This document shows positions 3,705-60,763 of a stretch of 64,000 bases of DNA, piece after piece. The notes below the pieces were generated by a model, which saw only the letters and a program-made list of their open reading frames with translations, was not told the DNA's origin and made no database searches. This DNA is from Pyropia yezoensis (lineage: Eukaryota; Rhodophyta; Bangiophyceae; Bangiales; Bangiaceae): positions 37,486,894 through 37,550,893 of the forward strand of contig CM020618.1 in NCBI GenBank assembly GCA_009829735.1, written 5' to 3'. Made by a program: the position numbers and the translations under genes. The first letter of the stretch is position 1; every line of letters begins with the position of its first letter.

Positions 3705-6002
3705 TTAGCGGCCGCCGCCAAAGTCGCCACGCTCCACCGCCGACGGCTTTGGCGAAAAGGTCAGGTAGACGGCGCCGTTGGTGACGGGCGACGCCACCAC
3801 CATGCGGCGGCCGGCGAGCTCCGTCCCCCAGTCCCGCCTGTGCTTGGCCGCGTCACCCCCACCGCCGCCGCCGCCGCCATCGCCACTCGCCACCACGTCC
3901 AGGATGGCCCGCGGCAGCGGGAGCACCCGCGAGCTAGACGAAGAAGAGTTGTCTGCCGCCGGACTCTGGCCGCAGCTGCCGCTGGCGTCGCGGCCACGGC
4001 GGCGGCCACGGTCGCGGTCGTGATCGCGGTCGCGGTCGCCGTCACGGCCGCAGCGACCGTGGCCGCCGGCGTCGTTGCGGTCGCCGCCGCCGCCGCCGCC
4101 AGCCCCCCCGAAGGCGGCAACCCCACCTGTCGCTCTGCCGCTCGCAAGGCGCAGTGGAAACGCCTCGCTGATTTCCACCGCCACCCCACCCCACGTGGGG
4201 GAGCTACCGGCCGCCTTGGCCTTGGCCGTCGCAGCCGCAGCCTCCACCGCCACCGCCGCGCCGGCATCGTCCCCCGGTCCGGCGGGGGAGCCCCGCTCCT
4301 GCAGCACCACCCGCCGCCAACCCGCCGCGTCAATGGGCACCCGCACATCCGGGGGCAGGTCCCACGCCGCCCACAAGGCGACCGCCCAGATGCCCAGCAG
4401 CACCACCACCAGGATGGTCAACGGGATTGCGTGGCGGAAGTTAAACTGGCCGCACTTGTCGTAGACTCGGACGGGCGCCACGCAAACAGATGAAACATCT
4501 TCAGCCTTGAGAGCAAAAAGGGCTCGCGCCAGGTCATTGGGGGTTATGGCGGCGAGCCGGCTGATGTTGGAGCCGACGTGCGACTGCACCGTCCCGGGCG
4601 AACTCATCTGCATAGTGCGCCACAATGAGGCGGCACGGGTCAAGTCTCTGTCCACCAGCCCGCTGCTGAGACAACTGAGGTTGTAGATGCGCGCCCGACT
4701 GGCGGTTACGGGTAGGTCCCACCTTGTGTTCCCCTCAGCAACCATTCGCATTCCTATCTGCACCTCCTCATCAGAAACCACCATCTCCAACGCGGCGGCC
4801 CAGATGCGCCTTGGCGGCTGCGGGGCTCCGCCCTCCATCCCGTTCGTGGCCAAGGAGGGGGGAAGAGAGGGGCGGCTGCCGGACGGCGGGTCCAGCGGCC
4901 AAAAGGCAAAGCCCACCCCCAAGGCCGTGTCGTGGGTGAAGTCGCCGTGGACAAAGCGGGCCTTGGCGCTGCTCTCCTGCCACTTTGCCAAGGATGAGTT
5001 GATGACATAGATGCCCCGCTGCCCTTCGCTCATCTCAAAGGTGATATTACCACAACCCCCAAAGACTTCTGTGCAGGGGCGCAGGGACACACGGCACGCG
5101 GCAGCCACCACCTTCGTGGGCAAAGGGTCGTCCACCGGGGGCGACCGCACCTCAACCGCGTTCATGTCCATGGACGCCCCCTCGGGCACGACCGTCCAAT
5201 CCGGGTCAGCCCATGGGATGCGGCTAGTGAGCAACGCGCTGGCAATCACGTCCGAGTCGCGGACGCCCTCCCAAGGCGAAGCGCAGATACCCCGTTGGGG
5301 AGTGACCACGTGCTGCGCGCAGCGGTTGCTCTCAGAGAGGCCGCCCTCGAGCACTAGCTCCGCGGGGATGAGCAGCAAGATGGAGACTAGCAGCGCGAAT
5401 GACCACGCCATTGTCACGCGGTACGAGGTTGAGTACGTGTAGCGGCTGGAAACGTCCGGGCGGGGCGAACCAGGCAAGTACTCGCTAGCAGCGTCCCCAA
5501 CGTTAGAGGTCAGCTCCAGGTCGGCGCCCTTCCCGCGGGCGTCGTCGTTGGCCCACCCGGGGCGACCTTGACCGGCACCCCGCACGCGCTGCCGCCAGAG
5601 GCGCCCTCCCATCATCCGGAGCCAGTGGCTGACGTGGACTTCGGACGAGTCGGTCGCAGCGGTGGCGCCCATCAAATGGAGTTGCACCTTGGCAGCCAGC
5701 AGGTATGTGTGTTCCATAGCGAGCACCACCACCCCGTGAATGACGATGAGAAGCGCGTTGAGCGCCGAGTTGAGCGCACCGACGCTGAGGGAGAGGGCCA
5801 CCAGCGCCATCACCATCGTGGCCTCCAACAACAGCCCCCACCCCGCGGGGAGGGCAGCGCCAGTGGGGGGAGGTGGGCACCACGAGCATGGGGGCGCTGC
5901 CGTGTCGCCAACGGGTGTCCCCAACCCACCGCGGTCCGCACCGCTGACCGGGTTCAGCCCAGAGGAAAGGGCACTGGCGATGCCGGGCCGGTGCGCGGGC
6001 AC
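3705..6002 (-). CDS. Large multipass membrane protein of unknown family
   Basis: I do not recognise a family. The open frame gives up to 765 residues (counted from base 6002). Hydrophobic segments sit at about residues 55-95 (probably two helices), 195-218 and 523-547. Between the last two is a loop of about 300 residues with several Cys (for example in RVSLRPCTEVFGGCGNITF) and N-glycosylation sequons (NITF, NSS, NLS, NIS), as expected of a lumenal or extracellular domain. The C-terminal 200 residues are low-complexity, with Ala-rich, Arg/Asp-rich (RDRDHDRDRGRRRGRD) and poly-Ser stretches. The frame has no ATG before residue 63 (base 5816), and the hydrophobic stretch starts before that Met. 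A 5' exon beyond base 6002 is therefore likely. Codon use matches the neighbouring host genes. Confidence 0.6.
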   Translation of the reverse strand: MPAHRPGIASALSSGLNPVSGADRGGLGTPVGDTAAPPCSWCPPPPTGAALPAGWGLLLEATMVMALVALSLSVGALNSALNALLIVIHGVVVLAMEHTYLLAAKVQLHLMGATAATDSSEVHVSHWLRMMGGRLWRQRVRGAGQGRPGWANDDARGKGADLELTSNVGDAASEYLPGSPRPDVSSRYTYSTSYRVTMAWSFALLVSILLLIPAELVLEGGLSESNRCAQHVVTPQRGICASPWEGVRDSDVIASALLTSRIPWADPDWTVVPEGASMDMNAVEVRSPPVDDPLPTKVVAAACRVSLRPCTEVFGGCGNITFEMSEGQRGIYVINSSLAKWQESSAKARFVHGDFTHDTALGVGFAFWPLDPPSGSRPSLPPSLATNGMEGGAPQPPRRIWAAALEMVVSDEEVQIGMRMVAEGNTRWDLPVTASRARIYNLSCLSSGLVDRDLTRAASLWRTMQMSSPGTVQSHVGSNISRLAAITPNDLARALFALKAEDVSSVCVAPVRVYDKCGQFNFRHAIPLTILVVVLLGIWAVALWAAWDLPPDVRVPIDAAGWRRVVLQERGSPAGPGDDAGAAVAVEAAAATAKAKAAGSSPTWGGVAVEISEAFPLRLASGRATGGVAAFGGAGGGGGGDRNDAGGHGRCGRDGDRDRDHDRDRGRRRGRDASGSCGQSPAADNSSSSSSRVLPLPRAILDVVASGDGGGGGGGGDAAKHRRDWGTELAGRRMVVASPVTNGAVYLTFSPKPSAVERGDFGGGR

Positions 6003-7316
6003 ATCCAGGACACGCCACAGCCGTCAAGGAGGAGATATGAAGGCTGGACGCCCGCGGCGGCGGCACATCCCGCCCACCTGCCCACCCACCCCAATCCGGG
6101 TCTTCAAAAACAGGGGTGCATGAAGAGACCCGATGTGCGATGCAAGGCACGTCGGCAAGGGCCAACGAGGCCACCTGCAACCATTGCCACTGCCGCTACC
6201 GCTGCCGCCGCCGGCCGGCACCATCCCGGGCGTCTCCGTCGCGCCGCCTGCCGCGCCCACCCCCCCCGCGCCTGCCCGGCGTCCTCCGCGGTTCCGCCCA
6301 CTCTCCTCGGTGGGGCGTCGCGAGCCCGGATCGTCAGCTAGGACTTTTTTCCGCTCAGACCCCGTATCGGCGTTTTTGATCGCAGTCTGCGCTCAGATGG
6401 CGGTTTTGATACGGTCTTTGATGCGCATCAGCTTTCGCTCCAAATAGATCTTGCGAGCGAGACACCCCAGTCACGAGTGTGGCGTGTGCGCCGCCATTTT
6501 ATTGGCTGCAGCTCGACTGCGATGGAGAATCTGATGACTGCGAGACAGTGGCCCTCAGGCACTGTAGAGCACCACGGCCTCGGGCGGCACCTCGGCCTCT
6601 GCAGGCGACTGTCTCGCAGCCCCAGCACCTCTCCTGGAAGCCTGCGGCCCGGGGCCTTGAGCTTGGCGGTGCCCACGCGAAGCAAGATAGGCGCTGTCTG
6701 CCAGTCGGCCGCCGCCCCCCCGCCCACCGCCGCAACTTGCTCCGCCTTTGTCACCCCCACGACCAAGGCCATCTCTTCTCCACCCCCCGCCAGCCCGACT
6801 GGCTCTGGTAGCCACCAGTGCCAACGTCCCTACAACGTCCAGGGGCGCTGAATATCTGGACACCCTCTATCCCTGCGGGCGGCGCCTCGGCACCGGCTCA
6901 GGCGACGACATCAAGTGGTGGAGCGCAACGGGACGGTTGTGCCGTCGGCGACGGCGGGAGTACAAGGAACTGGCGGCCTTCCGCACATAGCTGGGAGAGC
7001 CATGCGGTAAGTTGGGGTGTAGAGTGGTGGGAGGACGTGTGTCCACGCCGGGGGAGCAGGAGGAGGGAGAGGTGGTGGGGGGGGCGGGGGGGGGCGGGGG
7101 GATGAGCTGCCTTGGTAGTGCGTGCAGATGCTTCCCCACTTGAGCCCATATGCGCAACAAGCTGCGCCTTGTCGACGGCGCCGACCACCGCTGCGCTCCA
7201 GGTGTCTGAGGGCAGCGTGTGTGACTCGGGGGCGAAGGGGGAGGAGGCAGCCAGCTGTGGAGGCGATGACTGCTCTGCGCGCACCGAGGCAGGGTGGATG
7301 CATCATGCTTTGTTGC
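6003..7316. other. Region without a convincing gene
   Basis: GC falls and no conserved frame stands out. A frame at 6428-6772 (-) starts with ATG and gives 114 residues without recognisable motifs, so I treat it as unproven. A 12-bp perfect inverted repeat lies at 6538-6549 and 6608-6619. G-rich runs occur near 7075-7100. Confidence 0.4.
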
Positions 7317-7844
7317 TCATGTACTCAGTCTGAGTTGCCTCTGTCTCATGTGTTCTCTGTTGCTAGCTCTGACTTGGCCATCTGACTCCCTCTCTTTTCT
7401 GCATGCGCTGGGTCTGGTAAGGGTATCCACGTGGTCGCCGCGCTGCTGACGGTAGTGATTCACGGCGCTACGCTGCTGGTGGTAGAGGTTGGTGGCGCCG
7501 GCTGCTGGGGGTGCGTGGTGCAAGGCGTTGCGCTGGTGGCGACAGTGGTGGGCGGCGCCACTCCGTCGGCTGTGGTGGTGGGCGGCACCAACAGCGTGCG
7601 GGGGGCACGCTGCAGGCGAGGAGGGGGTGACAAGGGTAGTGAGGGCGCTGGTCTGCGGCTCGGACAGGGAAGATACGTCGAGGTCGCCGGCGGCCGTCAA
7701 GGCGAGGTGCAGCACGTCGAGCGGGGACCAGAGCGTGCGATCCGGGTGGTCGAGCAGGGACACGAGGCGGCGGTAGGTGGTGTCGTACGTGGCGGGGGAC
7801 GTGTACGCGGGGAGGATCGTCAAGAGGGTGATGCGCGCCTCCAT
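7317..7844 (-). CDS. Unassigned open frame with a protein-like N-terminus
   Basis: The ATG at 7844 opens 175 residues. The first 70 look like folded protein, with an alternating hydrophobic pattern around LVSLLDHPD and SPLDVLHLAL. This faintly recalls the start of a PUL (ARM-like) domain, but too little is present to claim it. The remainder is a His/Arg/Ala-rich imperfect repeat (AAHH, NHYRQQR units) that looks like a minisatellite read through. It could be a 5' exon, a decayed fragment or chance. Confidence 0.2.
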   Translation of the reverse strand: MEARITLLTILPAYTSPATYDTTYRRLVSLLDHPDRTLWSPLDVLHLALTAAGDLDVSSLSEPQTSALTTLVTPSSPAACPPHAVGAAHHHSRRSGAAHHCRHQRNALHHAPPAAGATNLYHQQRSAVNHYRQQRGDHVDTLTRPSACRKERESDGQVRASNREHMRQRQLRLST

Positions 7845-8395
7845 CGTGGGGGGGGGGGGGGGGAACGGATCGGGGAAGTGGGTGGGCCGGTGGGGTCGGC
7901 GGCTGGGCGAAGGATACGAGGAGTGCGGGTGTTGGCCGCTCTCGTCACACCAAGGCGCAGCGTCGGGGGTCCGCCGGGGTCGTGGGTCCGGGGCGATGGA
8001 TTCGAGGCGCCGGCGGCGCGTCACACCAAGGCGTCGGGCACAGCTATGCGATTCGCCGCCGATCGAGGGTACGAGGCACCCGGGTGGTGCGTCACGCCAG
8101 GTCCGAGGGAGAAGGAGCTAGAGGGGAAGCGAGCCACCTGTAGCGTTACCATGTCAATATGGAGAAGCGTGTTGTCTATCGTTGCCTCTCCTACGTCGGG
8201 TGTGGGCGGGCCGTCGTGCTGCCTTAAGTGCCCGTGTGCCTGTCGGTACACGTGGCGTGGCTGTGTCAGCCGACGTGGCAGTGGCCCGGGGTTGACAGTT
8301 GTAGCTTGGGGTGAGAGCGGTCGGGTCGGGCGGACGCACAGTGGCACTCTTTCAACAAGAGAAACCGTTTTCATTGGTTGAACAGCTCATGATCG

Positions 8396-8480
8396 GTCTC
8401 GCATCGCAGGATGCCGCGTCCCAACGCTCATCGCAGGATGCCGCATCACAACTCGTATCCCAGGATGCCGCATCAAGCGC
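8396..8480. repeat. Three-copy tandem repeat, about 29-bp unit
   Basis: Three imperfect units share the core CAGGATGCCGC, at about 8408, 8438 and 8463. They lie inside a 95-codon frame (8311-8598, +) that I do not consider a proven gene. Confidence 0.6.
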
Positions 8481-8776
8481 GCTCGGTTTCCCCTCAAACT
8501 TTGATCATGATACGGGTCAGCTCTCGCTCAAAATTCCGGTCTTGAGCGACAAAAAGTCCAAGCCGACAATGTCCCGTCACCTGCAGGAGCTCAAATAGGT
8601 AAATACGCAGGGCAACACCACTTATCGACAAGGGGTTGCCAAGCGTGCCACTTCCGGTCAAGCGCACGAGTATTAAGTGATTTAAAGGATCAGCGTACGC
8701 GACCTTGCAAACAAGGGACTCTGCTATCTAAACCTGCCTGACAGAGTGTACTTTCCTTGCGTATTTTTATTCTATG

Positions 8777-9440
8777 ATATTGCTGATTTCTTAGTTCTGT
8801 CCTAGTGGTCCGAGAACGACTATCCCAGACGGGCCCTCAGCCAACCAGATTCGCCGCTGGGACGGACTCCCAGGCCGATGTGCCCCCACAGGCTGGATTC
8901 GCCTCAACTTTTCTTCACATCTCCGGGGAAAAAATTGGTTTTGCTTACATCTCCCGAAAAGAAGCTTCTGACAGTAGAAATACTTAAGCTTCTGAGATGA
9001 AATGTGGCGGACGACTATAGAACCCTCATTTTATATGGCTTTTCACTTTTTGTGTTAGACAAACCGTCGAGACGAGCAGAACGAGATCTCTTTTATGTCG
9101 TAGAAATCGATCTGATCCGACCGGATGCGGCGGACTGATGGAGGGGCGAATATTGTTTAACATTGCGATGACTTTAGACAGGGGTGACTTTGGAACTTGC
9201 ACAATCTTCAAAGCACGCTATCTCCGTTCGACCGACCTCAAGAATAATTAGGTTTCTATCGTCGACCGCCACAAATAGTGAGAAACAGTTGTGGCCCTTT
9301 CTGGCCCGGCATACGACCATTTGATTGGGTCTTATAAAAAGCAGCGCTGTCCAGCCAATGCGGTGCCCGTAAAGTTGGAAAATTGACTCTGTTTCTCGGT
9401 CTCCGGCGACCGGGAAAGAGTTGAGCAAGCAACAATAGCT
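8777..9440. repeat. Dispersed repeat, copy A (split by about 290 extra bases)
   Basis: Two blocks (8777-9000 and 9291-9440) match blocks at 19874-20105 and 20118-20264 in the same order and orientation. Shared stretches include GCCGATGTGC, CCACAGGCTGGA, CACTTTTCTTCACA-like and CTCCGGGGAAA in block 1, and TTCTGGCCCGG, GCCAATNCGGTGCCC and GCAAGCAAC in block 2. Copy A carries about 290 bases between the blocks that copy B lacks. No reading frame longer than about 65 codons runs through it. The class is unassigned. Confidence 0.75.
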
Positions 9441-12270
9441 GGAAAGCGTACTGTAAAAAATAACGCATGTAACGTAGATACCGCAAGCGTACTTTTCCGA
9501 CAATTGGTCAGAACCAAGGCTCACAAAAGCTTCCTCAGTGCCATGAATTCCCCAATTGATCTTAATGCAGCTGCAGTCCGTCCGGGAAGTGATCGTTATC
9601 ACGCGATGGCCGTTGTGTTTTGCCCGACAGCGCACCTGGCAAGAAAACGTTCGCGCGTGATACTTTAGCGTACATTTTGCCCGCTAGAGCGCGCTTATGC
9701 GAACCAGACACATTCGGAGAGTTGTCAGAGCGTACGTGTAATACGCTAAAAGAATACGTTCGTAACCCGCTTATTTTGAGTACGCTTGGCAACCCCTCAT
9801 ATCGACCACCTCCGGCTTCACAATTGACATCGTTTCACCCTATGCACTACATGGTACAGTAAATGCAGTACATTTCGGCTGTCCCTGAATTATTCAGATA
9901 TGCTCAGAAGTTTAGTATAACAACGCATTCATTTACGAAACTGACTGTTCTCTTGGCTGTTTTTCGCAATATATTATGGTTCCTGACAAGGGTACTAAGA
10001 CTGACTCGCTCATACAGGCTCTCTGCCAATGAGAGTAGCCCCGAGGACTGTCTTTCCGACCGATGAGCCCCCACTCAATGGAATTCGCCATGATTCTACT
10101 CGGAAACCATGGAAATGAGTGGTCCTGCAGTGATATCCTCGAACGGATCTGAAGTCAGTGAAATAAACTCAGTTTCTACCATGTAGATTATTGTGTCGCT
10201 CTGTGGCCGTCCTAACGAAACAAGGATGAGTCGATTGAACAGCTGATAGCAGACTTAAACCAACAGGGTGCTTTAATAATCGTACCATTACTTCATCTCT
10301 CGGTCTTGGTCTTCCATAACAGAATTCAGCCAGCTCCAATAGTATATAGGTACCTGATGATCTGGGCCCCTCATCAGGTGTGGACTCGCCACGAGATCGA
10401 TCCCCCATTGCGCGCAATCTTTTCCTCTTCGCCAGGATACCTCCATGTTGCAGCACTTAACGTTGAGGCCTTCCCCGTCAAAGGTTATGTTGCCGCCGAC
10501 CGCCCATAATCCCAAGACAATGGTCAAATCGACTGGCAGGAAAGAAGTGTGTCGTGTACAGACTCCTGCGCCAGATGACGCCCCCACTTTTGACTTCATT
10601 TTCTTCATTGTAGGATTTTCCCTGTAAAAGTGTATCAGTTGCTCCCGCCATTTACCCGCGCTTAGTCAGATTGCTTTACTTCGACGTTCTCTGCACAGGG
10701 CACCAACGGAGGAAGCCGCTCATTGGTGTCTACGCTCGTGCGTTTCAATAATCCCAAACATTGGATCAAATCCTTTCCCAAAGTTCCGGATTCATTTTGC
10801 CGTCTTCCCTCATCTAAACTGTCATAGTCACTGGCCGCTGTTCATCTTGATGAGCTGACTTAGTCATGGGTACAGTACAGCCAGGTGTGAGCAGGTCTCG
10901 CCTCACGTAAGTGTAAGGCGGCTGCTTTCCCTTGTGCTCCACGCGGTCATTGCAGGCGCGTTCCAATACCGGAAGACGTGTGGTGTCCTCTGGCCTCTTT
11001 GCCCCCTACCACCAAACCAACTGATTCCAGGAGATTGGGCGCGTTCATCACGAAGACGATCCCTTCTCGGAGCTCCTACGGGCGTCCCCAAGTTCACTTA
11101 GTGGCCGCAGATTGCGGTAAACACAATTTCTACATCCTCGTGCAGAAATCTCAACCCACTTCCATTTCGTTGGACTGCGCTGCAAAATCACATGTGAGAC
11201 ACATTTCTCGCTATCTCCTGTGACTCGCAAGCACATGTCCACGCACGGCTCGCGTGGAACCCTTCCCCACATCAGTCTTCAAGGGTCTCACTAGAATGTT
11301 TCCTACTACAACCAGAATCTTCGGGTAGCATCGCTCTACCCGAGCTTACGTCCAAGGCCTTTTTGCGAGTTCACCGCTCTTCAAAACCCCACTGCCCTCC
11401 TACTTATTGAGGCTGTGTTTTTACCCTAACGGCGTCGCCTTGGTCGTCCGCTACAGCGCCATCCACGGCTGAACCTTTTGACAGGAGTTGTTGCACACTT
11501 CTCAGCCCGCTGCAACTGTGATGGCCCTCGTCCGGCTGTCTGGAGTCGGGGCGTTCACACGTACCACCTTCGGTCAAGCGGACAAGGACTGAATATGTGA
11601 AGATATAAGTGTACACGAACTAAAGGTAGATTCCATATGGCTAGGCCGGTCAGAAAAGCGGCATCAAACTGTCGCTAATGATCGTATCGGGCTGAAACTT
11701 TGCCACGGTACTCCTTGGTGTGTCTCGGGACTGTGATGATAAAGACAGCTCGTGAAAGCGTCATGAAGCGCTGGTATGGCAGACGTATTGCGCTTCGTGT
11801 ATTTCCTCTTGTTGCAGCTGCTCGGAATGCGGCGATCCGCCTCCCGAGTCGCATGACATTGAGAATGTCATGACAGTCACAGGGGGGCCACTCAAACAAT
11901 TGCCTGCGCGACTTCTGGGATTCGAATAGGAGGGGGCGCGGGGGGAAGCGGGATCTCGCGGCGATTGCAGCTGTGGGGTTCGGGGGAGGGCGGGGTGCGC
12001 GTGAACTGGCGGCGATTGCAGCTGTCGTGGGGGGGGGGGGGAGGGGGGTGGCGGTGCACATGCGGCGATCTGTGGCGGGGACGGAAATAGTGGGGGAGCG
12101 CAACACCTGTGGCGTCCTGCTGCCATGGTGAGGGGTGGGAGGTGGCTACCAGTACGCGTCCGTGGCCGAGCGGGGGGTGGGGTGGTTAGCCCCCGTGGCT
12201 TTGCTGGGCATAAAAAATTGGGAGCGTGCCTGCACGGACTTGCATAGGGGGGGGGGGGGCGAGGGAAAGG
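9441..12270. other. Gene-free, locally AT-richer stretch
   Basis: About 2.8 kb contain only short chance frames, and I recognised no conserved motif on either strand. Base composition differs sharply from the flanking GC-rich genes. This is compatible with decayed repeat DNA. G-runs appear from about 11930 onward. Confidence 0.5.
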
Positions 12271-52076: not shown

Positions 52077-55000
52077 ATGCCCCCCCCCCCCCACGATATG
52101 GCTGCGGCGGGGACGCCCCCCGCCTCGGCCGGCGCCGCCACCCCCCCCCCCTCTGCGGCGGCCTCCCCCCCCTGGGGCCCCATCCTCGTGGCCAACCGCG
52201 GGGAGATTGCGGTGCGCATCATCCGCGCGGCGCGGTCGCTGGGCCTCCCCACCATCGCCGTCTACACCGCGACCGACGCGTCGTCGGGCCACGTGGCCGC
52301 CGCGGACACGGCCGTCTGCCTCGGCGACGCGTCGGCCGCCTACACGGACGTGGCCGCGCTTGTCGCGGCCGGCACCGCCGCGGGGGCCGTGGCCGTCCAC
52401 CCGGGCTATGGTTTTGTCGCGGAAAACGCGGCCGCCGCCGACGCGTTTGAGGCGGCGGGCATTGCCTGGGTGGGGCCCACCCCCGACACCATCCGCGTGT
52501 TTGGGTCCAAGCACGGCGCCCGCGCCGAGGCGGTCGCCGCTGGCGTCCCCGTCCTCCCCGCCTCGGCGCTCGTTGCCGACGCGGCCGCGGCGGTGGCGGC
52601 GGCCGACGCGGTCGGCTACCCGGTGCTGCTCAAGGCCACCGCGGGGGGGGGCGGCATGGGGCAGGTCCCCGCCCACTCGGCGGCGGGCGTCGCCGCTGCG
52701 TTTGCCGCCGCGTCGTCGGCGGGGGCGTCGCTCTTTGGCGACGGCCGGCTGTACGTGGAGAAGCTGGTCGCCGCCGCGCGGCACGTGGAGGTGCAGGTGT
52801 TTGGCGACGGCCACGGGGGGGTGGTGGCGCTCGGCGACCGGGACTGCTCGGTGCAGCGGCGGCGGCAAAAGGTGGTGGAGGAGGCCCCCGCGCCGCGCCT
52901 CTCCGACGCCGTCCGGAGGGAGATGGCCGCGGCGGCCGCCGCCCTCACCGCCCGCGGGCGGTACCGGTCGGCGGGGACTGTCGAGTTTTTGGTCGACTCC
53001 GCGAGCGGTGCCTTCTTCTTCCTTGAAGTCAACACGCGCATCCAGGTGGAGGCGGGGGTGACCGAGACGGTGACGGGGGTGGACCTGGTGGGGGGGATGC
53101 TGCGCCTCGCCCGGCGGGACCCCATTGCCGACTGGTTCCCGGCGCTGGCCGCTGCGGGTGCCGCCGCGGGTGCCGCCGCCGCCACCCAGGGCGGCGCGCC
53201 CGCCGACGGGTGCGCCGGCGCAACGGCGGGCGAGGCGGGCGCAACTGCCACGGCCGCGGCGCCCGCCCGCCTGCCGCCCGTCACGACCGTGCCGATGCGC
53301 GGGGCGGCGATTGAGGCGCGGGTGTACGCCGAGTCGCCCCTCCACGGCTACCGCCCGTCGCCCGGCACGCTCACGGCCATGACGTGGCCGCCCGAGTCGC
53401 CGACGGTGCGGGTGGACACGTGGGCCGCCACCGGCTGCACCGTCTCCCCCGACTTTGACCCCCTCCTTGGCAAGATCATCGCGTCGGGGCCGACGCGGGC
53501 GGCGGCGCTGGCGACGCTCGCGGCGGCGCTTGCCGCCACCACCGTCCGCGGGGTGGCGAGCAACGTGGAGCTCCTGTCAACGGTGGTGACGCACGAGGCG
53601 TTTGTGGCGGGCGTCTACACCACCGCCCTCCTAGACGGTGTCACCCCGACGGCGTGTGCGGTCGAGGTGCTGTCGCCGGGCGTGCAGTCGTCGCTGCAAG
53701 ACCACCCGGGCCGCGTCGGGCTGTGGCGGGTGGGCGTCAGCCCGTCGGGCGCCCTCGACGCGCACGCGCTGGTGGCGGGGAATGGGCTCCTCGGCAACGA
53801 GCCGGGGGCGGTGGCCCTCGAGATGACCGTCCGCGGGCCGACGCTCCGCTTCCACGTGGCCACCACGGTGGTGCTGTCGGGCGCCCGGCTCGCCGCGTCG
53901 ATGGACGATGGCCCGCCGCTGCCGTGGTGGACCCCCATCCCCGTGCCCGCGGGGGCGGTTCTGACCATTGGGGGGCTCTACCGCCCGGCCGCGGCGGTTA
54001 CCGCGGCCGCTGCCGCTGCCGCCGCTGCCGCCGCGGCGGTCGTGTGGGAGGAGGAGGGGGAGGCCGACGCGCCGCCCGCGGGGGCGGGGGTGGCCACGCC
54101 GGGCGCGACGGCGCCCGCCATCGGCGCCGCGCTCGCCTGCCTCGACCCGGCCGCTGTGGGCGGCGGCGTCGACGGCGGCGCGCTCTCCCCCGCGGCGGGC
54201 GCCCATGATGGCGCGGACGGGGTGGAGGGCGAGGCCGCCGAGGGGGGTGGTAAGGTCGCCTACCTCACCGTCCGCGGCGGCTTTGACGCGCCCCACTACC
54301 TGGGCAGCGCGTCAACCTTCCCGATTGGCCACTTTGGCGGCCACGCGGGAACCTTTTTGGCTGCGGGGGACCTGCTGCCCCTGTGTCCCGCCGTCGTGTC
54401 GACCCCCACCCCGTGGGGCACGACGCCCCTCCCCCGGGCGCTCCGCCCTGTCTATGCGCCCTCGTCTTGGACGGTGGCGGTGCTGGTCGGCCCTCACGGC
54501 TCGGACGACATCTTCACCCCCACCTCGCTGGCTGCCCTCTTCACCGCCGACTACCATGTGCAGACCGCGACCAACCGGCTGGGCGTGCGGCTGACAGGCC
54601 CGACGCCCGAGTGGGCGCGCCCGTCGGGCGGCGACGCGGGCCTCCACCCGTCCAACATGCACGACTACCCCTACGCGGTGGGGGCGGTCAACTTTAGTGG
54701 CAACACCCCGATTGTGCTCATGGCCGACGGGCCGTCGCTGGGCGGGTTTGTGTGCCCCATGACCGTCGCGAGCGCGGACCTGTGGAAGGTGGCCGCCGCG
54801 CGGCCGGGCGACAGGATCCGCTTCAAGCCCGTCGCGCCGACCGACGCCGCCGCCGCGGCGGCGGCGCAGCGGCGGACGTGGGCGGCCATCCCGCGCGGGC
54901 CCGCGGCGGTCGCCGCCCTGGGCGGGCCCCACACCGCCGCAGCGGCCCGCGCCGCCGGCGAACCGGCCGACAGCGGCTGGTGGGACCCCGCGTGGGTTGA

Positions 55001-57929
55001 CAGCGCGGCGGTGAGCGCGGCGCCCGCCATCTTGGCGACCATGACCACCCCCACCCCGGGTGCGGGCGACGTGGCCGTCGCCCTGCGCGCGTCGGGCGAC
55101 ACGCACGTGTTGGTGGAGGTGGGCGCGTGCGAGCTGGACCTCCTCTACCGCTTCCTCGTGCACGAGCTGGCGGCCGCCCTGGAGGGCGGCGACGGCATTG
55201 GCGAACTCTGCCCCGGCGTCCGGTCGCTGCTCGTCGAGTTTGCGCCCGCGGTGGCCCCGCTGGCCGCCGTCGTCGCCCGCATCGCCGAGCTGGCCGCGGG
55301 CCTCGGCGCCCGCCTGGCCGCCGCTGCGGGGACGGTGCCGAGCCGGGTGGTGCACCTGCCGCTGGCGTTTGGGGACCGCTGGACGGCGGCAGAGCTGACC
55401 CGCTACGCCCGCTCTGTCCGTGCCGAGGCGCCCTACCTGCCGTCCAACGTGGAGTTTGTGCGCCGCATCAATGGGCTGCCGTCCATTGAGGCGGTCGGCG
55501 AGGTGCTGGCGTCGGCCCAGTACCTGGTCCTGGGCCTCGGGGACGTGTACCTGGGCGCCCCCTGCGCGGTGCCCGTCGACCCCCGCCACCGGCTAGTGAC
55601 GTCCAAGTTTAACCCGGCCCGCACGCACACCCCCGAGGGCGCCGTCGGCATTGGGGGTGCCTACATGTGCATATACGGGACGGAGAGCCCGGGGGGGTAC
55701 CAGCTGGTCGGCCGCACGCTCCCCATCTGGGACACGTACGGCAAGGTGCCCGAGTCGGCGAGAGGCGCGCCGCCCAGTGTGCCGTGGCTGCTGCGCTTCT
55801 TTGACCGCGTCGTCTTTGACCTTGTGAGTGACGAGGAGCTGGTCGAGGCGCGTCGCCAGTACGCCCGCGGTGACCTCAAGCTGACCATTGAGGACGGCCC
55901 TGATGCGGTTTTTTCCTACTCTGATCACGCGCGCTTCCTCGAGGAGAATGCCGAGTCGATTGCTGCCTTTTCATCGTCCCAGCGGGCCGCCTATGACGCC
56001 GAGGCGGCGCGGTGGGCGGCGGCTGGTGAGGGCGCCAACAACGACGCGGGCGCGGCGGCGGCCGCCGCCGCGGCAGGGGCGGCTGCCAATGGCGGTAGCG
56101 AAGACGCCGCGGGCTCGCCGGGCGCCACAGGCCCCGACGGGGACGGGGGCGCCTCTCCCGCCAAGGCGGGTGTGGCAAAGGTGCCGGCGGCGGCCGACGA
56201 GGACCCCCCCGCGCCCCACTCGGTGGCGGTGACGGCCGGCGTGGCGGCGTCGGTGTGGACGGTCCTTGTCTCGGACGGGGAGGCGGTGACGGCGGGCCAG
56301 GCGCTGGTCACCCTCGAGTCGATGAAGGTGGAGCTGACCATCGAGGCGCCTATGGACGGCATCGTCCGCCGGCTGCGTGCCGCGCCCGGCGACCGCGTCG
56401 CCGCTGAGACCCGCCTGTGCGACGTGGCCGCGCCGTCGCTGGCGGCCGCGCTGGGCGACGGCTCCCTCCCGCACACCCGCTCGATGCTGCGGCTGGGCGT
56501 CCTGTCGGCCGACGGGGTGGTGGCGGCGGCGCACGCGGCGGCACGCGCGGCGGGGCCCTCGGTCTTTGTTACCGTCACCCCGGCTGCGGTGCTGCGGGAG
56601 CGCCTGGCGGCGCTGGCGGCCACCCCCGGCGGCGGCCGGGCGCTCCCCCTCTACGGCATCCCCTTTGCGGTCAAGGACAACATTGACGTGGCGGGCCTGC
56701 CCACCACCGCCGCCTGCCCCGCGTTTGCCTACACCCCGTCGGTGTCGGCGGCGGCGGTGGTGCGCCTGGAAGCCGCTGGGGCCGTGTGCATTGGCAAGAC
56801 CAACATGGACCAGTTTGCAACGGGCCTCACAGGCACGCGGTCGCCCTACGGGGTGCCGCTCAACGTGGCGGCGCCCGACTACATCCCAGGGGGCTCCTCG
56901 TCGGGGTCGGCCGCGGCGGTGGCCGGCCGCGTCGTGCCGCTTGCGCTCGGCACCGACACGGCCGGGTCGGGGCGGGTGCCCGCGGCCATGACGGGGCTGG
57001 TGGGCCTCAAGCCGACCAAGGGGCTCGTCTCCACCCGGGGGGTGGTGCCGGCGTGCCGCAGCCTGGACGTGGTCAGCGTCTTTGCGCGCTCCGTCGCAGA
57101 CGCCGAGGCGGTCCTGGACGTGCTCGCCGCCTATGACGCGGCCGACCCCTACTCGCGGGTGCCCCCCGCGGCGGCCGCCCCGCGGGTGGCCGACGGCGGG
57201 GGTGGCGACAGCGTCGCCGGCGGGCGCCTCCCCGCCACGCCCGGCGCCTTTACGTTTGGCGTGCCCGCGGCGCCGCACCTGACCTTTGACGGCGACGAGG
57301 CGTCGGCGGCGGCGTTTGCCGCCGCCGTCGACGCGGCCGTCCGCCGTGGCGGCACCGCCGTGGAGGTGGACATGGCGCCGCTGGCGGCGGCGGCGGCGCT
57401 CCTCTACGGCGGGCCCTTTGTGGCCGAGCGCGCCGCCGCGGTCGGCGCCTTCCTCGCTGCCCACCCGTCGACGGCGGAGCCGGCGGGCACCAATGGGGAC
57501 GCCGGCGCCTACGACGCGGCCGGCATTGACGACACGGTCCGCGGGGTGATTACGCGGGGCGGCGACGGGCGGGCGCACTCGGCGGCCGACGCGTACGCGG
57601 CGGCGGCGGCGCTGGCCGCCCACGTGCGGCTGGCCGACGCGACGATCTGGTCCCGCGTGGACGTGCTGCTGTTGCCGTCCATCCCGCGGCCGGTGCGGGT
57701 GGCCGAGGCGCGGGCGGACGTGCTGGCGGCCAACGCGCTGCTCGGCACGTACACCAACTTTGTCAACCTGGCCGACCTGGCGGCGCTCGCCCTGCCGGCG
57801 GGCGCTGGCGCCGACGGTGTGCCGCGGGGGGTGACGCTCGTGGCACCCGCGTGGACAGAGGCGCTGCTGCTGGGCATTGGGCGCCGGTGGGAGGCGGCGG
57901 CGGGGGCGGAAGCGGGGGCGGAAAAGTAG
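52077..57929 (+). CDS. Urea amidolyase, fused urea carboxylase then allophanate hydrolase
   Basis: 1950 residues, one exon. It converts urea to allophanate (ATP, biotin, bicarbonate) and allophanate to ammonium and CO2. Domains in order: biotin carboxylase 35-490 (ILVANRGEIAVRIIRAAR, AVHPGYGFVAEN, KATAGGGGMG, FLEVNTRIQVE); AHS2-type carboxyltransferase half 525-945 (EVLSPGVQSSLQDHPGR); AHS1-type half 1000-1240 (GELCPGVRSLLVEF, KFNPARTHTPEGAVGIGG); biotinyl domain 1375-1450, biotin Lys1417 in ESMK; amidase 1490-1945 with Lys1533, cis-Ser1607 (GGSSSGS) and nucleophile Ser1631 (GTDTAGSGR). The 74- and 24-residue spacings equal those of bacterial allophanate hydrolase. It stops right after the amidase core, so the C-terminal domain seen in AtzF and yeast is absent. 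I prefer the ATG at 52077; one at 52098 is possible. No plastid-type N-terminus, so probably cytosolic. Confidence 0.93.
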   Translation: MPPPPHDMAAAGTPPASAGAATPPPSAAASPPWGPILVANRGEIAVRIIRAARSLGLPTIAVYTATDASSGHVAAADTAVCLGDASAAYTDVAALVAAGTAAGAVAVHPGYGFVAENAAAADAFEAAGIAWVGPTPDTIRVFGSKHGARAEAVAAGVPVLPASALVADAAAAVAAADAVGYPVLLKATAGGGGMGQVPAHSAAGVAAAFAAASSAGASLFGDGRLYVEKLVAAARHVEVQVFGDGHGGVVALGDRDCSVQRRRQKVVEEAPAPRLSDAVRREMAAAAAALTARGRYRSAGTVEFLVDSASGAFFFLEVNTRIQVEAGVTETVTGVDLVGGMLRLARRDPIADWFPALAAAGAAAGAAAATQGGAPADGCAGATAGEAGATATAAAPARLPPVTTVPMRGAAIEARVYAESPLHGYRPSPGTLTAMTWPPESPTVRVDTWAATGCTVSPDFDPLLGKIIASGPTRAAALATLAAALAATTVRGVASNVELLSTVVTHEAFVAGVYTTALLDGVTPTACAVEVLSPGVQSSLQDHPGRVGLWRVGVSPSGALDAHALVAGNGLLGNEPGAVALEMTVRGPTLRFHVATTVVLSGARLAASMDDGPPLPWWTPIPVPAGAVLTIGGLYRPAAAVTAAAAAAAAAAAAVVWEEEGEADAPPAGAGVATPGATAPAIGAALACLDPAAVGGGVDGGALSPAAGAHDGADGVEGEAAEGGGKVAYLTVRGGFDAPHYLGSASTFPIGHFGGHAGTFLAAGDLLPLCPAVVSTPTPWGTTPLPRALRPVYAPSSWTVAVLVGPHGSDDIFTPTSLAALFTADYHVQTATNRLGVRLTGPTPEWARPSGGDAGLHPSNMHDYPYAVGAVNFSGNTPIVLMADGPSLGGFVCPMTVASADLWKVAAARPGDRIRFKPVAPTDAAAAAAAQRRTWAAIPRGPAAVAALGGPHTAAAARAAGEPADSGWWDPAWVDSAAVSAAPAILATMTTPTPGAGDVAVALRASGDTHVLVEVGACELDLLYRFLVHELAAALEGGDGIGELCPGVRSLLVEFAPAVAPLAAVVARIAELAAGLGARLAAAAGTVPSRVVHLPLAFGDRWTAAELTRYARSVRAEAPYLPSNVEFVRRINGLPSIEAVGEVLASAQYLVLGLGDVYLGAPCAVPVDPRHRLVTSKFNPARTHTPEGAVGIGGAYMCIYGTESPGGYQLVGRTLPIWDTYGKVPESARGAPPSVPWLLRFFDRVVFDLVSDEELVEARRQYARGDLKLTIEDGPDAVFSYSDHARFLEENAESIAAFSSSQRAAYDAEAARWAAAGEGANNDAGAAAAAAAAGAAANGGSEDAAGSPGATGPDGDGGASPAKAGVAKVPAAADEDPPAPHSVAVTAGVAASVWTVLVSDGEAVTAGQALVTLESMKVELTIEAPMDGIVRRLRAAPGDRVAAETRLCDVAAPSLAAALGDGSLPHTRSMLRLGVLSADGVVAAAHAAARAAGPSVFVTVTPAAVLRERLAALAATPGGGRALPLYGIPFAVKDNIDVAGLPTTAACPAFAYTPSVSAAAVVRLEAAGAVCIGKTNMDQFATGLTGTRSPYGVPLNVAAPDYIPGGSSSGSAAAVAGRVVPLALGTDTAGSGRVPAAMTGLVGLKPTKGLVSTRGVVPACRSLDVVSVFARSVADAEAVLDVLAAYDAADPYSRVPPAAAAPRVADGGGGDSVAGGRLPATPGAFTFGVPAAPHLTFDGDEASAAAFAAAVDAAVRRGGTAVEVDMAPLAAAAALLYGGPFVAERAAAVGAFLAAHPSTAEPAGTNGDAGAYDAAGIDDTVRGVITRGGDGRAHSAADAYAAAAALAAHVRLADATIWSRVDVLLLPSIPRPVRVAEARADVLAANALLGTYTNFVNLADLAALALPAGAGADGVPRGVTLVAPAWTEALLLGIGRRWEAAAGAEAGAEK

Positions 57930-58706
57930 GGGGGGGGGCGTAGAGGGAGGGGTACGAGGCACTCACTGGGAGGGGAGGGCAGGGGTCGATGATGTTGGTG
58001 TAGTGTGCGTGTGTGGGGTGAAACAAGGTTGGACGAGGGGAATCATTGAATTGCTCGGCTTCAGGTTCTTCCGTCTCATGCACACCTCGTGCGGCTGCGG
58101 TCGTCCGCGGGGGGGGGGGGGACACAGCGGCGTGTCCTGTTGGGGGGACAGCCCGCGGCGCAGCCGCCTGCGACCACCCGCCCCGGGGCGCGGGGAGCGC
58201 GTCGCGCCGACTGAAAAGAAAAGCCCGCCCACGGGTGGAAGGGAGCGGCGCCGGCGGCAGGGGAAAACCATTACGGCCACTTGCAGCGGCCCACGGGCTT
58301 GCAGGCCGTCCCGGCCCGTGCAGCCTGTCCACCCCACCGCCCCTGGCGGGAGGGCCCCTCGCCCGTCGCGGGCGGAAACCGCCGCGCGTCGCTGCCAGCC
58401 GTCAGCGCTGGCCGCCGTCAGCCGCCGCCGCGTCCCTAGCACCACCCACGAACGTCACGGCCGGCGCCACCGTCGGTGCGCGCGGTACCCCCGAGGCGGA
58501 TGCCGTCGGCGGGACACCCCCCAGGTCAGGGGCTCAGGCAGGAGAGGACTCCCTCCACCCTCCTCACCCCCCTCCCCCCCCGCCTCGACAACTCCGCCAA
58601 GGCCGCCTGCACAACCCCTACCCCCCACCCCAACCCTACCCCTCCCTCCACCGCCCCAGCATGCACAAGGAACAACAGCGCCGAAGTGGGGCGGTCGCGC
58701 CAGCCC
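57930..58706. other. Convergent 3' intergenic region
   Basis: 777 bp between the urea amidolyase (+) and the PWWP gene (-). G-run at 58110-58122. No gene seen; long frames here are chance. Confidence 0.45.
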
Positions 58707-60763
58707 CTAGCTGCACCGTCTGTACGCAGTGCCCCCCTCACCGCCGCCACGACCAGAGCCACCGCCGCTGCTGCCAGATGGGCCCGCCGAAACGCCCCGT
58801 GGCAGACGCTCCGTATCGGCCGGTGACGGCCGCGTGGCCTTGTCCCCGGCGCCGCTCGGCGCCGGGGACAGCGACGACGACGGCGGCTGCGGCTGCGACG
58901 GTGGCGGCGGCAGCGGCGCCCCCTCCTCGTCTGGCGCGGAGTGGGCCGAGATGAACGTCATCCACTCATCAATGAGCAGCGAGCAGAGGACATCCACCGC
59001 GAGGGAGGACGACCGGTAGCGCTGCAGGACGACGCGTACCGGCTTGCCCGCCTTGGCCTCCACCAGCTGCGCCAGCGTCACCTTCATTACAATGGCCCGC
59101 CGGATGGCCACCTCAAACGCCCGCTCCGCGGCGTCCCGCTCGGCGCCGAGGGCGGCCCACTCGCGAAAGTGGCGCGCAAAGGTGGTCAAGTGCGCTGCCT
59201 CGGCCTCCCCAGCGGCGGCGCTCGCGCGCTCGCCGGCGGGGGTGCCGTCGCCGGCCGCCGCCCCGCCCGCAGCCGACGGCGGCGGCGGCGCCGCCGCCGC
59301 CAACGCGGACGAGGCTACGCCCAGGGGGATGGCGTCAAGAGCAACCTGGAAGGTGGCCCGCTGCTGTTCCACGGCGGCCACCGCGACGCCGAGGCGCTTG
59401 GCCGCATCGGTGATGCCAGCTACGGCGGCACAAAGCTCCGCCGTCGATGCGGGCACGGACATACGCTCCCCCTTGGGCACCCAGTACCGCCGCGCAGCGT
59501 CGCCCGTGTGGCTGACGAACCGCCGCTCGCCGACCTCCTCCTCCCCGTTCCCCGCTGACGCCGCCGACTCCCCCCCCGCTGACGGTGCCCCGCCGGGCTG
59601 CGGTGGCAGGGGTGGCGGCGGCGCCAGGCCGCCGGTCAGGTGGAAGCCCTTTAGCGCCGCCTTGACGTCCTCCCACGACAGCGGCCTCGCGGCGGCGGCC
59701 GCCCGCGCCGCCGCCTCGGCCTCTGCGGTGGCCAGGCGGGCGCGGCACACTGCCAGCTCCGCCTGCGCGGCGACGACGGCGGCGGCCAGGCCGCGGCGGG
59801 AAGTGCCGCTCGGCCGGCGGCTGCTGCCCCCGCGGGTAGTCGGCGCGTCGGCGCCAGGCCGGCCCGCCGCGGCCGACGTCTTGGACCGCTTGCGGGGTGG
59901 CCCCGTCCCGCCGTCGGCGCCGTCGCCAACGCCGGTACCGCCCACCGCTGGCGTCACGGGGGTGCCGTTGGGGGCGGGCGTAGCCGCCCGGGCGCCCCCC
60001 CCGCGCGAGGCCACCGTCGCGGTGGCGGCGGCCGTCGTGGCGGACGCCCCGCCCCCCTGGCCGGTGGACCCCCCCCGGTCGCGCCCGTCGGCCGGCCCGG
60101 TGGCGTTGGCGGCCTCGGCGAGCGCCTGCGCCAACGCAATGTCCACGTCCGTGCGCTTGCGGTGGCTGGCCTTGACACGCAGCGCGGCGGTGTTGACCTC
60201 GGTGAGCAGCCGCAGGCCAGACGCGGGGAGCCACGCGCCCTTTTCGTCATTGAAGAACTGGACCCTGACGCGCACGGGGAGGAAGGAAGGGGATGGCGGG
60301 GGCGCATGCGGTGAAAGCATTGAAAGAAAAGGGAACAGGGAGGACCAGCACAGTCACGAGCGAGCCGGGAAGCCAGGTCAACAAGGCCGTTTCTGCCGCG
60401 AGGGTGGCGCAGCCGCGGGTACCACCGGAGGCCCACGCCACCTCTGACGGAGCTCACCGTGGCCTCCACTGTTTGTCACCAGCACCCCCGCCACGATGAA
60501 CGAACAGTCCCCCCCACTCCCCCCCCATTCCCCCCCCATTCCCCCCCACCAGGCGGCCTCCACAGTGTGGGGGACCCGCCAGCAGCCGCCAGCACGTACC
60601 AGTGGTCCGTCTCGCGCTTGCGCTTCTTGGGTGGCCCCGGCGGCACGGCGCGGACGGTGGCGGGCCACCAGGGGAAGCCCGGAAGGCGCGCCCACACAAT
60701 CGCCCCGTCGCGCACCTTGAGCGCCTCCTCCGCGGGGGTCGTCGGCGGCAGGGGGGGGGTCAT
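58707..60763 (-). CDS. PWWP-domain chromatin protein with C-terminal helical (IBD/TFIIS-N-like) domain
   Basis: 573 residues from exons 60763-60600 and 60264-58707. The intron (60599-60265, 335 nt) runs GTACGT to CAG and splits a Trp codon. The PWWP domain lies at residues 15-95. It starts with VRDGAIVWARLPGFPWWPATV, then HWVQFFNDEKGAW across the intron, then LPASGLRLLTEV. PWWP domains read methylated H3K36 on nucleosomal DNA. Basic and Ala-rich linkers follow. About 380-495 is helical (FAVAIRRA-like IMKVTLAQLVEAKAGKPVRV, then SLAVDVLCSLLIDEWMTFIS), resembling the TFIIS-N/LEDGF integrase-binding bundle in which a LxxWxxL helix closes the fold. This suggests an HDGF/LEDGF-like reader that recruits elongation factors. 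A possible extra acceptor (CCCGCAG near 60785) hints at a 5' leader exon. Confidence 0.75.

Follow-up and report, generated by a model that had tools for sequence, protein, structure and literature searches.

Does the red alga Pyropia yezoensis carry a urea amidolyase that is fused in the opposite order to that of fungi, and from what could such a fusion have come? The question is raised by one open reading frame in the 64,000-nucleotide stretch of contig CM020618.1 that we analysed (the window). The gene represents a novel form of a known enzyme, urea amidolyase. From its sequence we think it probable that it encodes a red-algal urea amidolyase in which urea carboxylase (UC) precedes the N-domain of allophanate hydrolase (AH), that the C-domain step takes place in trans or spontaneously, and that the fusion arose separately from the fungal one, out of a UC-then-AH gene pair.

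The gene sits on a contig of 43.6 Mb, in a genome that totals 107.5 Mb. Its frame runs from an ATG at 52077 to a stop codon that ends at 57929 and has 0 internal stops over 1950 codons, which upholds the single frame described in the initial annotation. Its features in the window are as follows.

52077..57929, plus strand: fused UC-AH N-domain gene, an open frame of 1950 codons (Pfam and NCBIfam)
52182..53636, plus strand: biotin carboxylase (BC) domain, residues 36-520, made up of Biotin_carb_N (36-139), CPSase_L_D2 (147-347) and Biotin_carb_C (413-520) (Pfam)
53730..54830, plus strand: CT_A_B / AHS2, subdomains A and B of the carboxyltransferase (CT), best stretch residues 724-918
55083..55742, plus strand: CT_C_D / AHS1, CT subdomains C and D, residues 1003-1222 (Pfam)
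56238..56420, plus strand: biotinyl (BCCP) domain, Biotin_lipoyl residues 1388-1448 (Pfam)
56421..56483, plus strand: fusion junction, a linker of 21 codons from the end of the biotinyl match (residue 1448) to the start of the AH match (residue 1470)
56565..57872, plus strand: amidase (AH N-domain), residues 1497-1932, with Lys1533, a GGSSSGS stretch and Ser1631, followed by no AH C-domain

The Pfam matches follow one another as biotin carboxylase, CT_A_B (AHS2), CT_C_D (AHS1), biotinyl and amidase, exactly as had been claimed. Their E-values across the protein range from 1.4e-84 to 8e-13, and the matches are far beyond chance despite a G+C content of 76%. The urea carboxylase model TIGR02712 (urea_carbox) scored 1343 bits against a cut-off of 1303.85, and the AH model NF006043 scored 507.7 against a cut-off of 487. 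CT_A_B is present as two stretches with an alanine-rich insert between them, and the fused gene is the single CT_C_D match reported in the whole genome. By position, residue 1417 in the motif ESMKVE is presumably the biotin lysine. In the amidase, Lys1533 lies within VKDNID and is taken here to be catalytic, and Ser1631 corresponds in the alignment to the position occupied by Ala in K. lactis S177A (4ist). Elsewhere on the same chromosome, far from the urea gene, a frame of 202 codons gives another partial CT_A_B match (C1:11550680-11550922) that exceeds the family cut-off with 39.2 bits.

From the open frame alone we infer a single exon and a single transcript. The 21 codons between the domain matches are too short a space for two eukaryotic genes, and G+C at the three codon positions is similar in the two halves (0.761/0.608/0.911 versus 0.786/0.616/0.925). 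DUF1995, which we take to be a plant and algal domain, is found in the upstream neighbour (E 6.4e-14). The downstream neighbour (58707-60320, minus strand) is an alanine-rich open reading frame of 537 aa with a sub-cut-off PWWP match (E 0.0052). Contamination was rejected on the position of the gene within the 43.6 Mb contig, its alanine-rich inserts and its eukaryotic-looking neighbours.

The diagnostic residues of the carboxylase bear on its substrate. According to excerpts of PMC11410670, guanidine carboxylases require an Asp at K. lactis position 1584, and an Asp at position 1330 separates them from urea carboxylases; an extract of a review (PMC12186494) gives Asn as the residue of urea carboxylases at the discriminating position. 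The algal protein has an Asn at K. lactis position 1330 (its residue 872, in CT_A_B) and an Asp at 1584 (in CT_C_D). Across 80 aligned rows (78 bacterial, K. lactis and the alga), position 1330 is Asp in 69 and Asn in 11. Thus, the algal carboxylase is of the urea type as judged by this residue. Urease alpha was not found in the algal genome by a search that was positive in 4 of 14 control genomes and that was done exon by exon, so that a strongly split gene could escape it. Taken together, the urea-type Asn and the failure to find urease alpha make urea amidolyase, with EC 6.3.4.6 and 3.5.1.54 on one chain, the likely function of the algal gene. The chain holds a UC with BC, CT and biotinyl domains and, after it, an AH amidase with its Ser and Lys; it does not hold the AH C-domain that the K. 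lactis chain has. For the SSS transporter family, which we take to include DUR3, the algal genome gave six matches in three places, all under the cut-off. A PyDUR3.3 of Pyropia yezoensis is named in a cited reference, to go by its title.

Part of the amidase end has been duplicated, as follows.

56927..59679, strand not assigned: duplicated stretch that recurs on C3 (L163, C3:19245674 ff.)

The two copies are 94.6% identical over 56927-58373 and 96.9% identical over 58625-59679, and the 251 bases between these blocks are unmatched. The copy on C3 is truncated: it starts about a quarter into the amidase, so that it has the larger 3' portion of that domain, and it also takes in a piece of the downstream gene. 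The 332 codons common to both copies give a dN of 0.022 and a dS of 0.076, values that are consistent with constraint on the full gene. On its upstream side, the copy includes what looks by eye like a gag-like reading frame. No second complete gene was found in the algal genome; the next AH-like match is this recent truncated duplicate, and three further amidase-like matches score 178, 134 and 45 bits.

How does the order of the algal enzyme compare with that of its relatives? In the alignment of K. lactis urea amidolyase, the AH part spans residues 63-450 and the carboxylase part begins at 619. The alga has UC first and K. lactis has AH first, so that the proposed reversal relative to yeast is real and the AH-then-UC order of the fungal DUR1,2 lineage is absent from the alga. 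A scan of bacterial and archaeal genomes yielded 465 relatives, the best 80 of which were kept as loci. Among these best 80, UC precedes AH on one strand in 74, AH precedes UC in 3, the strands are opposite in 1 and the locus is incomplete in 2. The members of 35 of the 74 UC-then-AH pairs lie within 10 bases of each other, counted by first start codon. None of the best 80 loci contains a UC-AH fusion. The initial annotation was therefore right that many bacteria encode the two enzymes as adjacent, separate genes.

Other surveys also gave no fusion. Among 396 Actinomycetota genomes, where the best candidates alone were scored, 8 UC genes over the cut-off had frames of 1206-1478 aa and none was fused. 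Surveys based on AH_C, which are blind to fusions without a C-domain, found this domain in 43 out of 369 genomes from the class of Xenorhabdus (longest frame 1483 aa; the piece read was AH without UC) and in 65 out of 385 from the class of Hyphomicrobium (longest frame 958 aa); in both surveys every frame was too short for a fusion. Two long frames from 14 locus-derived genomes, of 1770 and 1606 aa, were rejected as fusions; they correspond to loci L072 and L050, where UC and AH are read in separate frames. No fused relative was present among the matches listed from viral contigs (3 loci) or phages (5 out of 24 records at E 1e-30).

Excerpts of Strope et al. (2011; PMC3073912) describe fused AH-UC in fungi and in Pantoea ananatis and restrict urea amidolyase among eukaryotes to the fungi; that paper nowhere uses the term red alga. 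In our data, AH and UC adjoin yet are separate at a Pantoea agglomerans plasmid locus, and a P. ananatis plasmid stretch has an Asp-type UC gene with no AH in that stretch. No red-algal urea amidolyase appeared in titles or abstract openings among the matches listed from CC-licensed PubMed Central papers, and the gene may well already carry automatic annotations. In the main text of the P. yezoensis genome paper, the words urea and urease are absent (PMC7423979).

The AH half is incomplete: its C-terminal domain is absent from the fused chain. TIGR02713 covers only model positions 2-419 of 563 and scores 483.9, under its cut-off of 511.05. The initial annotation had taken the AH half as whole, and on this point it has to be corrected. 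No AH_C match lies downstream of the gene within the window, and all four AH_C matches of the genome are elsewhere. Two free-standing frames, on two chromosomes other than that of the fused gene, account for the matches over the cut-off.

C2:29323260-29323706 (L002): free AH_C frame, AH_C over the cut-off
C3:5633639-5634115 (L003), in two pieces: free AH_C frame, AH_C over the cut-off

Besides these frames, the algal genome has one weak AH_C match under the cut-off. Counted from the chosen Met start, the two proteins have 156 and 168 residues. They match PF21986 with 93.6 and 95.7 bits and no other Pfam family, and they share 64% identity. The predicted structure of one of them has a mean pLDDT of 86.3, and a structure search with this model ranked K. 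lactis AH at the top (E 3.5e-12, TM-score 0.67), followed by urea amidolyase and then by 5c5z.

A single histidine sets these proteins beside the C-domains of AH. Both free algal proteins have it, and so do K. lactis, 4gyr and 76 of 76 bacterial AH C-domains. All five bacterial free-standing relatives, of which one is a piece of 39 residues, have Ala or Leu at that place instead. The same pattern was seen in a first set with 22 bacterial AH rows. In K. lactis AH, a C-domain histidine is reported to be catalytic. The structure-model alignment had been chosen by the motif that contains the histidine and hence was not counted for it; the count of 76 of 76 comes from a recount made without that choice. 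By eye, the free algal proteins also keep AH-type stretches around a Pro-Leu and a C-terminal Gly-Trp. The C-domain tree is compatible with the algal proteins being either split-off AH domains or members of the bacterial free-standing family: holding them with the latter gave a log-likelihood that was higher by 1.15 (AU p 0.524). Four bacterial free-standing AH_C proteins (L155, L156, L157 and L158) lack the AH-type histidine, and the genomes of L155, L156 and L158 also have an AH_C inside an AH-length frame. A further bacterial AH_C-like frame without the histidine, L168, looks broken.

There are precedents for an AH whose C-domain is separate or missing. The C-domain is present in 76 of 80 bacterial AH open reading frames; of the four that lack it, L029 and L046 are at contig ends, L034 is a broken record and the last is L025. 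The L034 record (4756-10073, from a Bacteroides MAG) has UC and AH matches scattered over several frames and the C-domain in the next frame, as in broken genes or a poor assembly. In L025 (12198-13628), a Lachnospiraceae AH of 477 aa, the C-domain is absent from both the open reading frame and its flanks. At L145 (78-1884, class of Xenorhabdus), the AH N- and C-domains occupy two adjoining frames, and the second is preceded by a purine-rich stretch, AAAAGGAG, and an ATG, likely its own ribosome site. Among the short bacterial AH_C frames that we read further, only L145 looks like a true split. L167 and L168 were rejected because both look like frameshifts, and L169 was rejected because its frame ends at the contig end.

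As given in an excerpt of PMC3944691, AtzF cut at residue 467 has biuret activity equal to that of the full-length enzyme and an altered oligomer state, which suggests that AH can work without its C-domain. Dicarboxyammonia is described as unstable in an excerpt of PMC6219798, and the N- and C-domains of K. lactis AH act sequentially according to an excerpt of PMC5770610. Together with the split and the absent C-domains in bacteria, these reports suggest that a free C-domain would be workable and is perhaps dispensable.

Phylogenetic trees gave a mosaic picture. Within them, K. lactis is the sole fungal sequence, and the alga studied here is the sole red or green alga. The amidase half joins Actinomycetota with bootstrap/SH-aLRT support of 99/93 and 94/95 in two trees, and a tree constrained to put it with the fungus and its relatives is worse by 10.6-15.9 log-likelihood units (AU p 0.053-0.142). 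The UC half as a whole has no stable position, and the log-likelihood rises by 8.0 and 15.4 when this half is held in the fungal clade (AU p 0.715 and 0.944). Taken alone, the CT domain falls in one clade (98/99) with K. lactis, Pantoea, Xenorhabdus and two Bacteroidota; this clade holds unfused bacteria with the AH-then-UC order, and each of its five non-algal members has the urea-type Asn. The BC domain stands together with the full set of eight Actinomycetota rows, apart from the 20 others (97/95), the fungus and its four bacterial kin form a separate group in the BC tree (100/99), and forcing BC to the fungal grouping gave AU p 0.119. With six-state recoding, BC, amidase and whole UC were placed with Actinomycetota and CT alone with the fungus; from these recoded trees positions were used and support labels set aside.

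Separate trees of the halves had been suggested as the way to judge the origin, and they were divided: amidase and BC go with Actinomycetota, CT falls in the fungal clade, and the fungal grouping is not rejected at 0.05. As the alga is a long branch with an unusual composition, the mosaic may be true chimerism or noise, and it neither confirms nor refutes a separate origin. What stands of the independent fusion proposed in the initial annotation is its plausibility, which comes from the reversed order and the commonness of UC-then-AH pairs; the trees give no proof of it. These two points, together with a different junction (biotinyl to amidase) and the missing C-domain, make a fusion separate from the fungal one plausible.

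Several other explanations have to be weighed against this one. It is extremely improbable that UC and AH are two genes joined by the assembly or by a hidden intron, with no fused protein. The close spacing of nearly half of the bacterial UC-then-AH pairs might prompt this idea, but the stop-free frame, the short linker, the matching codon-position G+C and the eukaryotic-looking neighbours all speak for one gene. A guanidine carboxylase fused to AH is very improbable as well: most of the relatives found are of the guanidine type, with the Asp seen in 69 of 80 rows, but the alga has Asn at that position, and we rejected the guanidine identity on this residue. More has to be said about the free AH_C proteins, which could be unrelated to urea use (GGCT-like housekeeping proteins), with an algal AH that works without any C-domain. 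This would fit the reported biuret activity of C-domain-less AtzF, the reported instability of dicarboxyammonia, the short AH_C frames that bacteria have apart from AH and the AU p of 0.524. It is nevertheless somewhat unlikely, for both algal copies have the AH-type histidine and, by eye, AH-type stretches, and they form a pair at 64% identity.

The fusion itself could also descend from a permuted fungal-type AH-UC fusion or from a bacterial AH-UC ancestor, for instance through tandem duplication followed by losses at the ends. If the downstream loss fell ahead of the AH C-domain, such a permutation would also account for the missing C-domain. The strongly supported grouping of CT with K. lactis and unfused AH-then-UC bacteria, the gain in likelihood when the whole UC is forced into that clade, and the Asn in all five of its non-algal members are in keeping with this route. 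Yet BC and amidase join Actinomycetota with good support, after recoding CT is the one part that stays with the fungus, and a fused ancestor is unnecessary because the clade's bacterial members are unfused. We therefore regard permutation as unlikely.

Based on these data, we propose a model for the algal enzyme. The BC domain would use ATP and bicarbonate to carboxylate the biotin on the BCCP domain, and the CT domain would then move the carboxyl group onto urea to give allophanate. The amidase, which is tethered directly after BCCP, would take ammonia off allophanate. The last step, which belongs to the AH C-domain in K. lactis, would most likely be carried out in trans by the two free C-domain proteins, or would be spontaneous. 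We propose that the algal fusion was most likely separate from the fungal one and came out of a UC-then-AH gene pair. The activity, the trans action of the free C-domains and the separate origin are what we infer from sequence comparison. A more specific version can be put forward tentatively, as a possibility that we do not favour outright: a two-component enzyme in which UC and AH N are fused opposite to fungi and the C-domain was freed into two trans-acting paralogues, with a mosaic make-up of a CT from the urea clade shared with fungi and a BC and amidase that are Actinomycetota-like.

The split C-domain is the stronger novelty of this system, and what that domain does could be studied through the freed C-domains as a natural experiment. 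A urea enzyme of this kind was perhaps assembled more than once. If so, opposite fusions in unrelated eukaryotes would suggest selection for physical linkage of UC and AH. A single chain is held to be the more efficient enzyme in an excerpt of PMC5770610, whereas Lin et al. (2016), as cited in an excerpt of PMC6737895, found that a single chain is not necessarily more active; two opposite fusions, if real, would bear on this disagreement. For a seaweed crop (nori) in whose genome urease alpha was not found, the enzyme would provide a nickel-free route to urea.

The algal enzyme resembles several known systems, but differs from each. Bacterial pairs of UC or guanidine carboxylase with AH (uca, atzF) have the same domains, mostly in the same UC-then-AH order. 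However, they are two genes, and their AH usually has a C-domain (76 of 80 open reading frames). Free-standing AH_C proteins (for example PDB 5c5z, c4763) are like the two algal proteins in size and fold, but they lack (five of five) the histidine common to the algal proteins and AH C-domains. Green algae such as Chlamydomonas likewise use urea through both activities, and no urease was present in the four green-algal genomes examined; their UC and AH genes are separate (with 588-6236 bp between them in three of these genomes; PMC3073912), whereas those of the red alga are fused. Fungal DUR1,2 (K. lactis 5i8i), like the alga, carries BC, CT, biotinyl and AH amidase domains on one chain with the urea-type Asn, and fungal urea amidolyase genes have few or no introns according to an excerpt of PMC3073912. 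The algal gene differs from DUR1,2 in its reversed order, in the absence of the AH C-domain from its chain and in belonging to a red alga rather than a fungus.
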